NCBI GenBank assembly: GCA_025353165.1
Contig: JANXRE010000028.1
Coordinates: forward strand, 1-64,000
Direction of reading: 5' to 3'
Source of the DNA: Acidobacteriota bacterium
Lineage (GTDB): Bacteria > Acidobacteriota > Terriglobia > Bryobacterales > Bryobacteraceae
Length of the DNA stretch: 64,000 nucleotides
Both the position numbers and the translations under genes were made by a program. Numbering within the stretch: position 1 is the stretch's first letter; every line of letters starts with the position of its first letter. Shown piece by piece: positions 23,413-34,886 of the stretch. Under the pieces are notes generated by a model. The model worked only from the letters and a program-made list of their open reading frames with translations. It made no database searches and was not told the DNA's origin.

Positions 23413-23537
23413 CCGACGTGGCGCACGCACTCGTGCGCGCCGTGTCGCGACTCATCGCGACACAAGTTTTCGCCCGGCTCGCCGGGCGTCGGCAGAAGCG
23501 CCGACGCGGCACGCACTCGTGCGTGCGCCACGTCGGT
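23413..23537. repeat. two inverted copies of the 50-bp double-palindrome repeat (R1, R2)
   Basis: R1 (23414-23464, forward) and R2 (23489-23536, reverse) face each other around a CGCCCGG...CCGGGCG hairpin (23471-23488). Each unit holds a near-perfect palindrome GGCGCACGCACTCGTGCGTGCC-like block followed by a hairpin with GCGTCG...CGACGC-type arms. It lies between the start of the 22085 gene and the end of guaD, that is, downstream of guaD. Other copies are at 34835, 52569 and 60738. Confidence 0.85.
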
Positions 23538-26090: not shown

Positions 26091-28187
26091 CTACTCCACC
26101 ACCTCGAAATCCGTCCACTGCCCCGCCGCGCTCTTCTTCGGCTCCACCCGGTCCCCGGCGATCACCTGCATATAGTAATCCCCCGGCTTCATGAGATCTC
26201 CCAGCCGCAGCGTTCCCGCGATGGCCCGCGCGCCTCCTTCCACCTGCACCACTTTCGCCGGGCCGGAGTAAACCTCGCGCCCCTCCCGGTAAACCCGAAT
26301 CCTCGATATCAGCTCGCCCGGCCGACCCGCCTTGCCCTGCTCGACCACACACGCGTAGGACACTTGCCCGCCGCGCCGGAATTGCCGCATCGCCGCCGTG
26401 ATTCCGGCCAGACCCGGCGTGACACCCACGCGCTCCGGGTCCTCCAGCACGACGCTGGTCAGCGCCATCGGGACTTTCTTCAAATCCGGAACCTCGAGGA
26501 ACTGGCTGGCCGACCCCACCTTCGCCGTTGCCTCGTCCCGCACCGCCACGCGAATCTGATACGCGCCGCGCTTCTTCACATTCACATCCAGGGTATACAG
26601 CGCCCCATCCTTCATCGCCTGCTCGACATTCTCCGCGGGGATCTTGAGCTGATACTCGCGGGCGATTTTGGCCAGCGCAACGTCGCCCGTGCCCGTCGCC
26701 ACCACCACTACGCCGATGTTCGCCGTCGCGGACCTGTCCGCCGCCCAACTGAACTCGAGATCGTGCGTATTGATGTGCAGCAGATTTCGCACCACCGCGC
26801 CCTGCTTCGGAACCTCCGCATACAACGCGGTAAGCCGCAGCCGTACCCCCGACGACCGGAACGGCGACAGCATGGCCGCGCGCAATTGCTCGATGGGAGT
26901 ATCGTATCTCGGACGGCTCTCCTCGTCCGTCTCCCCGAAGAACCCCATCCTCGATCGCACGTGCAAACCCGCGCGCTTCACCTTCACTTGGATCTTGTGA
27001 TAACTACGCACACCGTGCTTATCTTCGAAAGTGCTCACCGACGGCTTGTATCCCAGTAGATAATAGCCCTGCTGGTCTTCCAGCACGCGATCCAGGCCCC
27101 AGTTCAGATCGTTGCCGTTCTCGTAGGCCAGTCCCCCGGTCTCCAGCGCCATGTGCGCGAGTCCCTGCTGTGCCATTTGGAACGCGACGTCTCTTCCGCC
27201 AGGCATTCCCACGTCGGTCAGGGCCCTCAAAGCGGTTTGCCTCTGCTCGCCGCTCATCCCGATGAACCCGCCGATCTCCACCCGGTCCGCCGCGCCCGGG
27301 ACCAGAGGCTGCAGACCCATCGTGTGCATGGTATAGATCACCGTCCCGGCTCGGTTGGCGAGATCGATCAGCTTGCGCAGCGCCTCCACGACGTCCCGGT
27401 TGGTCTGCATTCCGCCAAAATCCTCCTCTCCTCCGCGATGGACAACCGGACCCTGCCCCCCGGTGAACAGTTGGATCCCATCCGAGAAAAGCACGATCGA
27501 CTTACGACCCGGCATCTCGCGAAGCGCCCCGACAATATAGCTCACCGCCCCCAGCGTTCCAACCGTGAAAAGAGTATTCCTCTGGGCGTTATACGCGGCC
27601 TCCTGCGACCGCATGTCGCCGCTGTTCCGCGTCACGGCCTGCGCCTTTCCGTACATCCCAAGGGGCTCGAACAGGCTCACGCCGTAACGGCCGTTCGGGC
27701 GCCACCGCAGGCCATCGATAATAGACAGCAACAAGCGCTTGTCGGCCGTGAACTGTTGCAGCGCTCCGGAGCCGGCCGCGGTGCGGCACACCGCCACCAG
27801 ATCGCCGGGCTGCATCTGTTTCTCGATAAACTTGCGCAGCGACGATCGCACGAACGCCATGCTTTCGAACGACAACCCGAGATCGTCCACCATCAGCACG
27901 ATGGTGCGCCGCACATCTTCCACGCGCATCGGAACCGCCGGCAGAACAGGCGACACCACCGCGGCCCCCTGCGAGATTCGCACATAGGAAAAATACGTTA
28001 TAGCCTGCGGCTTGCCGTCCTCCAGAACTTCGAAGTCGTTGGCCGTGAGATCGGCGACGTGGCGCCCCTTTCCGTCGGTCACCACGGCATCCACCTGCAC
28101 CAGCGTGGACGTCACGCTGAACACTGGGCCCGGCTGCTGCCCGAATCCGAGGACCGCCGCCAGCACAACCGCTGAGAGTCGTTGCAC
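26091..28187 (-). CDS. VWFA-related Acidobacterial-domain protein
   Basis: A 698-aa exported protein with a GTG start and signal peptide (LSAVVLAAVLGFGQQ). The N-terminal strand-rich part FSVTSTLVQVDAVVTDGKGRHVADLTANDFEVLEDGKPQ and the VWFA region (about 95-330) with VLMVDDLGLSFE as MIDAS-like start define the Acidobacterial VWFA-related family. The C-terminal 300 residues form beta-sandwich-like segments. Function is unknown; such proteins are probably adhesion or matrix proteins of the cell surface. AATAAT lies 7 nt before the start codon. Confidence 0.88.
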   Translation of the reverse strand: MQRLSAVVLAAVLGFGQQPGPVFSVTSTLVQVDAVVTDGKGRHVADLTANDFEVLEDGKPQAITYFSYVRISQGAAVVSPVLPAVPMRVEDVRRTIVLMVDDLGLSFESMAFVRSSLRKFIEKQMQPGDLVAVCRTAAGSGALQQFTADKRLLLSIIDGLRWRPNGRYGVSLFEPLGMYGKAQAVTRNSGDMRSQEAAYNAQRNTLFTVGTLGAVSYIVGALREMPGRKSIVLFSDGIQLFTGGQGPVVHRGGEEDFGGMQTNRDVVEALRKLIDLANRAGTVIYTMHTMGLQPLVPGAADRVEIGGFIGMSGEQRQTALRALTDVGMPGGRDVAFQMAQQGLAHMALETGGLAYENGNDLNWGLDRVLEDQQGYYLLGYKPSVSTFEDKHGVRSYHKIQVKVKRAGLHVRSRMGFFGETDEESRPRYDTPIEQLRAAMLSPFRSSGVRLRLTALYAEVPKQGAVVRNLLHINTHDLEFSWAADRSATANIGVVVVATGTGDVALAKIAREYQLKIPAENVEQAMKDGALYTLDVNVKKRGAYQIRVAVRDEATAKVGSASQFLEVPDLKKVPMALTSVVLEDPERVGVTPGLAGITAAMRQFRRGGQVSYACVVEQGKAGRPGELISRIRVYREGREVYSGPAKVVQVEGGARAIAGTLRLGDLMKPGDYYMQVIAGDRVEPKKSAAGQWTDFEVVE

Positions 28188-28213: not shown

Positions 28214-28391
28214 GCTAGCCTGACTTTCGCAGTTGGGGGCGAATCGACGAGCTAAGTGGGATGGAATGAATAGAGGGTAGGTCTTCCCCGCAGCGATTTT
28301 TAGATTGCCCGCCTTGCACGCAAAGGACTTGCCTTCAGCCCGGTGCCGAACATCGATCAAAATCGTGCTGAACTGCGACAGTCAGGCTAGC
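28214..28391. mobile_element. 178-bp element with 21-bp terminal inverted repeats (MITE-like)
   Basis: 28214-28234 (GCTAGCCTGACTTTCGCAGTT) and the reverse complement of 28371-28391 differ at one position in 21. The interior has no transposase gene; a minus-strand frame crosses it without recognisable domains. It lies in the 240-bp gap between the VWFA and priA genes. No clear target-site duplication is visible in the flanks, so it may be an old MITE or the ends of a decayed insertion sequence. Confidence 0.6.
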
Positions 28392-28424: not shown

Positions 28425-30836
28425 TTACATGAGACTGATCGGATCGACATCAATCACCAACGATGTCGGGCTCCATTTCTGCGCCGCCGCGTACTGTCGC
28501 AGCTCTTTCAAGGTCTCGTTCAGGCGCTTCCGGCTGGCCGCCTTGATCAGTAACTGATATCGGAATTCCTTCTTCAGCCGAGGCACCGGAGCCTCCGCCG
28601 GCCCAAGCACGCGCAAATCCTCGGGCGGCGGCGTCAGCCTGTGCCCGATCTCCGTGCTCATCCGCAAAGCGTGCTCCTGGCTTTCGCTCCTCACCAGCAC
28701 ATTCGCCAGAGCTACGAAGGGCGGATATCGCATCGCGCGGCGATACTCGATTTCCCTCTCGTAAAAACCTGCGTAATTCTGCGCCGCCGCGAAGCGAACG
28801 GCGTAGTGGTCCGGGTTGATGGTCTGGATGAACACAATCCCGGGAATGTCGCCGCGACCGGCGCGACCGGCAGCCTGGGTCAGCAACTGAAACGTGCGCT
28901 CGGCCGAACGGAAGTCCGGCAGGCCGAGACCGGAGTCGGCGGAGATGATTCCGACCAGCGTCACGTTCGGAATATCGTGACCCTTGGCAATCATTTGCGT
29001 TCCGACGAGAATGTCGTAGCTGCCTTCGCGGAACTCGTGGATGATGGATTCGAAGTGGCGCTTGCCGGTCACCGTATCGCGATCCATGCGGGCGATGCGC
29101 GCCGTCGGGAAATGCTGGTGCAACTCGTCCTCGGCCCGCTCGCTGCCCGCGCCAACGAAATGCAAATACTCGCTGCCGCATTTGGGGCACACCGAAGGAG
29201 GGCGTTCGGCGTAGCTGCAGTAGTGGCACAGCATGCGGCGGTCGCGCCGGTGATACGTAAGGGTGACGGAGCAGTTTACGCACTGCACGCGCTCGCCGCA
29301 AGTGCGGCACGCGACGAACGTCGAGAAGCCCCGGCGATTCAGCAGCAGCATGGTCTGCTCGCCGCTGTCCAGGCGACTCTGGATGGCCTCCAGGAGTTTT
29401 CGTGAAAACGTCGCGTGCTTGCGCGTATCTAAAAACTCCTGGCGCATGTCGATCAGTTCCACCATCGGCATCGGCCGCTTCTCGATGCGCTCCGGCAAAT
29501 CGAGGTACTTGTACTTGCCCTTATCGGCGTTGTAGCGAGTCTCCAGGCTGGGCGTCGCGGAGCCGAGAACGATCGCCGCGCCGGCGTGCTGCGCCCGCAC
29601 AATCGCGACATCGCGTCCGTGGTATCGCGGAGTCTCCTGCTGCTTGTAACTCCCGTCGTGCTCCTCATCCACGACGATGAGCCCGAGATTCTGAACCGGA
29701 GCGAAGACACCGCTGCGCGTGCCCACGACAACCCCCGCTTCGCCGGAGCGAATGCGCCGCCACTGCTCGGCACGCTCCGAGTCTTGAAATGCGGAGTGGA
29801 GAATCGCGACTTTGTCTCCGAACCGGTCGAAAAACTGGCCCGCCATGGCGGGCGTCAACGCGATCTCGGGGACCAGCATCAGCGCGCCGCGCCCAAGCGC
29901 CAGCGTATCCTCGATGGCCTTCAGGTACACCTCAGTCTTGCCGGAACCCGTAACGCCTTCCAGCAGAAACGTCCGAAATTCGCCGGATTCAACCGCTGCG
30001 CGGATCTCCTGATAGGCCGTGAGCTGCGTCGCGTTCAGTGTGTGGGGCACACGAATGCGCCCCGCCGAGTGTACAACCGGCTCCGGCCGCAACATCACCG
30101 CCGCTTTGCGCGCCAGCGACCGCGCCGCCTCGCTCGCGTTCTTGACGGCCAGCTCGAGTTCTGCCACGTTATGCGAACCGGGGTGCAACTCGAGGTACGC
30201 CAGCAGCTCACGCTCTACTTTCGGGTACTTGGCGTCGGGGCGCGGAAGAAGCAGCGTGATCCGCAGGCGCTCGGCCGAGGCGCGCAGCGGGTCGCGCTCG
30301 CTTTCCGTGTCCTCCACTCGAACAAGGCCCTTCTTCTCGAGCGACTTCAGCACGCGCCCGGCTTCCGGAAACTTTGACTTCACGTAAGCCGCCGACAGGG
30401 GCCGCCTCTCGAGCATCCCCAGCACCTTCGCCAGCGGATCGCTTTCCCCGGCGCCCAACAATAGCTGCCGCGTCGCGTCGATGCCCAGCGAGGTCAGCGA
30501 ATAGACCTTGCCGCGCCGGATTTCTCCCGAGAGCGGCACCATCGTGCGCAGCACCTCGCCGATCGGCGCGCAGTAATACGCCGCGATCCACTTCCCCAGC
30601 GCGATCAACCCGCTATCCAGCACCGGCTCTTCATCCAGCAGCGTGAACGCGTCCCGCGCCACCACGCCGGGCGGATCGTCATACGTGTGCAAAACAACGC
30701 CGACGAGCTTCCTCGATCCGAACGGCACCGACAGCCGGCATCCGGGTTTCACGCGGTGCTGGAGCGTTTCGGGAAGGTGGTAGGTAAAAGCCTGGTCCAC
30801 CGGAACCGGAAGTGCGACGTCGGCGAAGGCTGGCAT
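28425..30836 (-). CDS. priA: primosomal replication-restart helicase PriA
   Basis: An 803-aa SF2 helicase. The N-terminal DNA-binding domain (FADVALPVPVDQAFTYHLPE...GCRLSVPFGSRKLVGVV) is followed by Walker A GVTGSGKTE, the DEEH box (VVDEEHDGSYKQQ), a cysteine-rich zinc cluster (VACRTCGERVQCVNCSVTL...CHYCSYAE...CPKCGS) and motifs GTQMIAKGHDIPNVTLVGI and QAAGRAGRG. It reloads the replisome at stalled forks. It starts 8 bp after accC ends and is the last gene of the minus-strand run that begins at cdaA. Confidence 0.95.
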   Translation of the reverse strand: MPAFADVALPVPVDQAFTYHLPETLQHRVKPGCRLSVPFGSRKLVGVVLHTYDDPPGVVARDAFTLLDEEPVLDSGLIALGKWIAAYYCAPIGEVLRTMVPLSGEIRRGKVYSLTSLGIDATRQLLLGAGESDPLAKVLGMLERRPLSAAYVKSKFPEAGRVLKSLEKKGLVRVEDTESERDPLRASAERLRITLLLPRPDAKYPKVERELLAYLELHPGSHNVAELELAVKNASEAARSLARKAAVMLRPEPVVHSAGRIRVPHTLNATQLTAYQEIRAAVESGEFRTFLLEGVTGSGKTEVYLKAIEDTLALGRGALMLVPEIALTPAMAGQFFDRFGDKVAILHSAFQDSERAEQWRRIRSGEAGVVVGTRSGVFAPVQNLGLIVVDEEHDGSYKQQETPRYHGRDVAIVRAQHAGAAIVLGSATPSLETRYNADKGKYKYLDLPERIEKRPMPMVELIDMRQEFLDTRKHATFSRKLLEAIQSRLDSGEQTMLLLNRRGFSTFVACRTCGERVQCVNCSVTLTYHRRDRRMLCHYCSYAERPPSVCPKCGSEYLHFVGAGSERAEDELHQHFPTARIARMDRDTVTGKRHFESIIHEFREGSYDILVGTQMIAKGHDIPNVTLVGIISADSGLGLPDFRSAERTFQLLTQAAGRAGRGDIPGIVFIQTINPDHYAVRFAAAQNYAGFYEREIEYRRAMRYPPFVALANVLVRSESQEHALRMSTEIGHRLTPPPEDLRVLGPAEAPVPRLKKEFRYQLLIKAASRKRLNETLKELRQYAAAQKWSPTSLVIDVDPISLM

Positions 30837-34834: not shown

Positions 34835-34886
34835 ACCGGCGTGGCGCACGCACTCGTGCGTGCCGCGTCGCCATTCTTGGCGACGC
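34835..34886. repeat. 50-bp double-palindrome repeat, copy R3
   Basis: ACCGGCGTGGCGCACGCACT... with the palindromic block centred near 34853 and a hairpin GCGTCGCC...GGCGACGC (34865-34886). It lies between the start of the quinone reductase and the 3' end of glmM, that is, downstream of glmM. Confidence 0.85.

Follow-up and report, generated by a model that had tools for sequence, protein, structure and literature searches.

A gene-less mini-element with IS1634-type ends between priA and a VWA-domain gene in an Acidobacteriota bacterium

The window, that is, the whole stretch of 64,000 nucleotides analysed here from an Acidobacteriota bacterium of the family Bryobacteraceae (contig JANXRE010000028.1), carries between two genes a short inverted repeat that a preliminary description took for a MITE-like element of 178 bp with 21-bp ends. 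This raises the question of which mobile element such a structure descends from, how it came to lack a gene, and whether it belongs to a spreading family or is rather a regulatory hairpin of the locus. Based on comparisons to full-length insertion sequences in relatives, combined with searches of its own genome, we propose that it is very probably a non-autonomous mini insertion sequence of the IS1634 family, inserted at CTAG, whose transposase gene was lost by a deletion in direct repeats.

Borders and anatomy of the mini-element

The terminal inverted repeats are beyond chance. The arms at 28214-28234 and 28371-28391 match at 20 of 21 positions across a spacing of 136 nt, just as first described, and the 21-mer with up to three mismatches occurs at two places in the 64-kb window, both being these arms (expected 0.00; none of 100 shuffles reached two places). 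The borders, in contrast, had to be corrected from 178 bp with 21-bp ends to 168 bp with 16-bp ends, the latter matching at 15 of 16 positions, as comparison with two-ended elements places the mobile sequence from CCTGAC at 28219 through GTCAGG at 28386. The adjoining CTAG on either side is a flanking target sequence outside the element that looked like part of the inverted repeat because it is palindromic, and the outermost G/C pair of the longer arms is one further chance match. The features are as follows.

26091 to 28187, minus strand: VWA-domain gene (TIGR03436), its start codon 31 nt beyond the element
28215 to 28218, no strand: CTAG left flank, putative 4-bp target duplication
28219 to 28386, minus strand: mini-element of 168 bp, IS1634-derived, two-ended, its halves matching the 3' and 5' ends of the insertion sequence
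28219 to 28234, plus strand: terminal inverted repeat CCTGACTTTCGCAGTT, 3' end of the insertion sequence, from the arm match and comparison with two-ended elements
28219 to 28278, minus strand: 3'-end segment of the parent, 95% identical over 65 bp, 5 of them flanking, to the C89 relic, and aligned to other 3' ends
28272 to 28386, minus strand: 5'-end and leader segment of the parent, identical at 92% to C39, 87% to C118 and 85% to G037 (the last over 28272-28324)
28279 to 28286, minus strand: junction motif AGGTCTTC / GAAGACCT, a direct-repeat motif in full elements, here in single copy
28371 to 28386, minus strand: terminal inverted repeat CCTGACTGTCGCAGTT, 5' end of the insertion sequence, 15 of 16 positions, from the arm match and alignment
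28387 to 28390, no strand: CTAG right flank, putative 4-bp target duplication
28425 to 30836, minus strand: priA, its stop 38 nt before the element

The neighbours are thus two minus-strand genes, as had been stated, and the interior is indeed gene-less: the 168 bp hold no open frame of 60 aa and hence no transposase gene of an autonomous IS1634 element. The left 60 bp correspond to the 3' end of an IS1634-family insertion sequence and the right 115 bp to its 5' end and leader, with the minus strand carrying the sense sequence of the lost transposase gene; the two segments overlap in AGAGGGT, adjoining AGGTCTTC.

The claim that the window holds no other clear transposon-like structure was too strong. 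At 23413-23536, between two minus-strand frames, lies a 35-nt inverted repeat (89%) with arms 54 nt apart, which resembles a repeat of the REP/REPIN type. Its core GTGGCGCACGCACTCGTGCG recurs exactly at 34841 and 52595 and, with up to three mismatches, at four places in the window, where 0.01 were expected.

Full-length relatives and relics in the same genome

An autonomous transposon with the same ends, which the preliminary description had suggested looking for, exists in related Acidobacteria. Scanning a genome collection with YTARCCTGACTTTCGCAGTT gave 96 stretches, 89 of them labelled acidobacterial and 7 otherwise. In two of these (L056, L085) CCTGACTTTCGCAGTT stands exactly at both facing ends, about 2.0 kb apart with an intact transposase between them, and a third (L134) has two facing exact ends at 1950 bp. 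The L085 transposase is a single open frame of 595 aa with a DDE_Tnp_1 domain, scores 296 bits against the IS1634 model NF033559 of NCBIfam (cut-off 100), and has matches in 67 of 150 relatives in addition to the own genome. Elements fetched by this protein rather than by their ends (L145-L148) terminate in close variants of the same end motif. Two records labelled Thermoplasmata (L079, L117) and one labelled Aliibacillus (L081) also carry the same 20-base end motif; in L079 a less perfect end-like match faces it at a distance of 1.6 kb.

The own genome is a metagenome-assembled genome of 5.77 Mb in 200 contigs, 98.4% complete. A DNA search found four places in it, namely the element, which is the single copy with two ends, and three relics with one end each. 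Of the compared stretch, only the left 65 bp (the 3' end) are found at C89:25717-25781 and only the right part (the 5' end) at C39:5932-6006 and C118:10344-10428; the 21-mer with up to three mismatches likewise occurs at four places, two being the element's own arms. None of the four matching places is located at a contig end, where unassembled repeat copies would show, although in a 200-contig assembly further copies may have gone unassembled. Beside its end, the C89 relic retains two C-terminal pieces of the transposase (aa 484-517 at 71% and aa 528-582 at 56%). A search with the transposase protein found no intact matching transposase in the own genome, where the other matches, on C94 and C35, reach only 30-34% identity and hence represent other branches. 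Taken together, the shared termini, the NF033559 assignment of the transposase between them, and the inner sequence shared with C89 in the 3' half and with C39, C118 and G037 in the 5' half mark the element, as judged from sequence comparison, as a gene-less deletion derivative of an IS1634-family insertion sequence.

The two solo 5' ends, L005 (G000:C39) and L007 (G000:C118), both stop after TTTGAGTG and then run into unrelated sequence, with no second end seen at those loci. A search of plasmid DNA gave no match to the element. An IS1380 origin, our first guess from the ends, was dropped, as the PF13701 loci of the own genome (L012-L019) lack such ends.

Is the element, then, a MITE? In build it is MITE-like, as claimed, being short, transposon-derived and gene-less with the terminal inverted repeats of an autonomous insertion sequence; the expansion that would make it a multi-copy MITE family is not seen, and the proposed search for further copies gave the single two-ended copy and the three relics above. 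It is nevertheless conceivable, if unlikely, that the 168-bp form arrived here whole, mobilized in trans by an IS1634 transposase since lost from the genome. Both terminal repeats and subterminal regions are kept, CTAG stands on both sides, and from the broken pieces of the parent it is clear that the genome formerly had a matching transposase. Against this speak the one two-ended copy and the missing cognate transposase in the own genome, and the two-ended pattern that finds the window element (exact CCTGACTTTCG...GTCAGGYTAR pairs, 148-208 bp; 1 of 257 genomes of the order) occurs in none of the 256 other genomes. A stricter exact pattern was found in 0 of 257 genomes, which says little because the mismatch in the terminal repeat makes it miss the window element too.

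Target site, junction and genomic setting

For 12 two-ended elements collected with no condition on their flanks, and a spurious 495-bp pair in L159 left out, YTAR stands at 21 of 24 flanks. Flanking 4-mers are equal in 9 and unequal in 8 of 17 two-ended elements, against a chance expectation of 0.295 (P = 0.037; 0.069 without the window element), in a set that leaves out L212 (truncated at a contig end) and L213 (TA missing from one flank) and in which some pairs were preselected for TA in the flank. The nine include the window element and two elements in finished plasmids (L235, L236). A 4-bp target duplication is therefore likely in these elements on the pattern of their flanks, and the CTAG pair of the window element would arise with a chance of 0.16 from site preference alone. 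Its flanks agree at 4/4 positions, then at 0/5 and 1/6, so that no 5-6 bp repeat of the IS1634 kind is present. Long variable direct repeats, reported for IS1549 and IS1634 in the family overview of PMC2266710, were sought in the flanks of 11 two-ended elements at all lengths that the loci permitted; at 6 nt or more, no value other than a single one at 8 nt reached 60%. Among related IS1634-type elements, L147, L156, L206, L208, L235, L236 and others have YTAR-like flanks whose pattern is one of 4 bp instead of 5-6 bp, and their ends agree in part with the IS701 signature as given in PMC2266710.

The junction between the two end segments coincides with a motif that full elements carry twice. 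Among 123 distinct ends preselected for a YTAR flank (de-duplicated by identical context, an end cut by a locus edge possibly counting twice), GAAGACCT occurs in 24 5' ends at a depth of 90-133 bp and AGGTCTTC in 19 3' ends at 61-67 bp, the window element's own end counted in each case; 52 ends have neither exact motif and 28 are too short to tell. In many full elements the two are direct repeats on one strand flanking the transposase gene, and their copies vary between elements and often agree within one, with TGTGGTGAAGACCT at both places in L085, TGTAGGGCAGACCT in L148, GGTGAAGACCTAGCC in L145 and TGTAGTGCCAAC in L236. In 9 of 14 elements, leader and trailer have a same-strand stretch of at least 11 identical nt in common; the 14 are not all independent, and some of the nine are mutual relatives. 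Between different elements such sharing occurs in 17 of 182 comparisons, on opposite strands in 0 of 14, and among shuffles in 4 of 420. The other five elements share 7-9 nt, the level of chance. A longest-frame rule had put several of the 14 on the wrong strand, which leaves the same-strand comparison unaffected.

Between the motif and ACCCTCT the window element is six bases shorter than C89; the exchange would therefore fall within ACCCTCT(ATTC), a stretch also present in the 5' leader of L053. The junction was reconstructed from relics and distant relatives, with no close full-length parent found in the own genome, and its position at a motif doubled around the transposase gene suggests gene loss by deletion between the repeats. 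We thus propose the following sequence of events. A roughly 2-kb IS1634-type element, or an already shortened form of it, would have inserted at CTAG between priA and the VWA-domain gene. A deletion ending in short direct repeats (GAAGACCT, then the ACCCTCT-type stretch), which in such elements sit just before and just after the transposase gene, would then have removed that gene and fused the two end segments, keeping both terminal inverted repeats. The product would be movable only if a matching transposase acts in trans; the own genome yielded none, and the element is therefore most probably inert at present.

A second mini-element bears on this model in part. A wider two-ended pattern, which misses the window element, was found in one of 237 genomes of the family, G208, as a gene-less two-ended mini-element of 148 bp (C441:3961-4108). 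Its leader stops at TGTAGCGCAGACCTAC, with 3'-end sequence directly after; the left deletion endpoint lies at the same motif, and the right one about 30 nt past the second motif copy, and it hence fits the deletion model in part only. The form occurs once in full in G208, with pieces at C829, and had no match in 18 other genomes of the genus. The same genome holds a 578-bp derivative of the same insertion sequence with both motif copies kept; this derivative (L239, G208:C829) has about 165 extra leader bases, with TTTAA on both borders, that are absent from the 148-bp form.

That right endpoint in G208, which misses the second motif copy, and the one-ended relics in the own genome could also be read in favour of a composite, in which the two ends stem from neighbouring or recombining copies and were joined by a chance deletion unrelated to the repeats. 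We consider this very improbable, as the two segments overlap by 7 nt beside a conserved motif and still stand in the normal end-to-end order.

The setting of the element was further examined for signs of a function at the locus. The old transposase leader points at the VWA-domain gene. None of 200 shuffles folds as well as the minus-strand RNA (z -3.7), and 197 of 200 fold less well than the DNA strand; a strong fold is what long inverted ends give. No sigma-70-like promoter, terminator or Rfam match was found in the element. A hairpin conserved at this locus, the alternative that the preliminary description had named against a transposon origin, is not borne out: the element DNA is matched in 10 of 200 relatives, by parts only. 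priA is found in 41 of 41 genomes; among the 30 priA loci compared, own genome included, a search of up to 1500 bp of flank at a threshold of E = 1 did not find the VWA-domain gene beside it in any of the 29 relative loci, which thus offer no empty site for comparison. That the element was co-opted to supply a promoter or leader RNA to the VWA-domain gene 31 nt downstream, in line with its orientation, its fold and the MITEs with promoters described in PMC10969869, is very improbable given the missing signals, the lack of conservation of both element and gene order in the relatives tested, and a fold expected of any element with long inverted ends.

Significance and comparison with known systems

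Gene-less mini-elements derived from insertion sequences are a known, ordinary kind, and the element alone is a minor remnant. It is, however, a traceable case of mini-element birth, in which the parental segments can be named and the junction lies on a motif carried twice by the parent type. The point of wider interest is the paired, co-varying repeats. As these differ between elements and agree within one, they would be functional cis sites in this IS1634 branch, evolving together or kept alike by conversion, and they may also promote shedding of the transposase gene into two-ended mini-elements, with the window and G208 elements as independent products; we offer this only as a tentative possibility. 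If the repeats are general in the branch, mini-element birth becomes predictable and testable. We met no description of paired repeats around the transposase gene in the IS1634/IS4-family literature searched, largely at the level of its listings, nor, in the literature likewise surveyed on IS1634, MITEs, Acidobacteria, Solibacter and Bryobacter, of this element.

Among the closest analogues is the 148-bp element of G208, which resembles the window element in its wider end group, its two ends, its gene-lessness and a junction at the GCAGACCT motif, and differs in CCCAACTTTCGCA ends, flanks CCAG/TTAG and the other right endpoint. The 187-nt MITE linked to ISL3 in Microcystis, as presented in PMC11448079, is also short and gene-less with terminal inverted repeats common to an autonomous insertion sequence, but there counts 31 and 33 copies, compared to one two-ended copy here. 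With the IS1634 family the element shares the ends that in full elements enclose an IS1634 transposase (NF033559), and these ends fit the family signature C-----YT of PMC2266710, whereas the family is gene-bearing and the element is not. The 15 full two-ended elements measured span 1950-2337 bp, against a tabulated IS1634 length of 1500-2000 in PMC2266710. The same table gives a target of 5-6 bp for IS1634 and 4 bp for IS701; the flanks analysed here instead suggest a 4-bp YTAR target, and the IS701 end pattern listed there, YACT-Y--YR, partly fits the ends of these elements.
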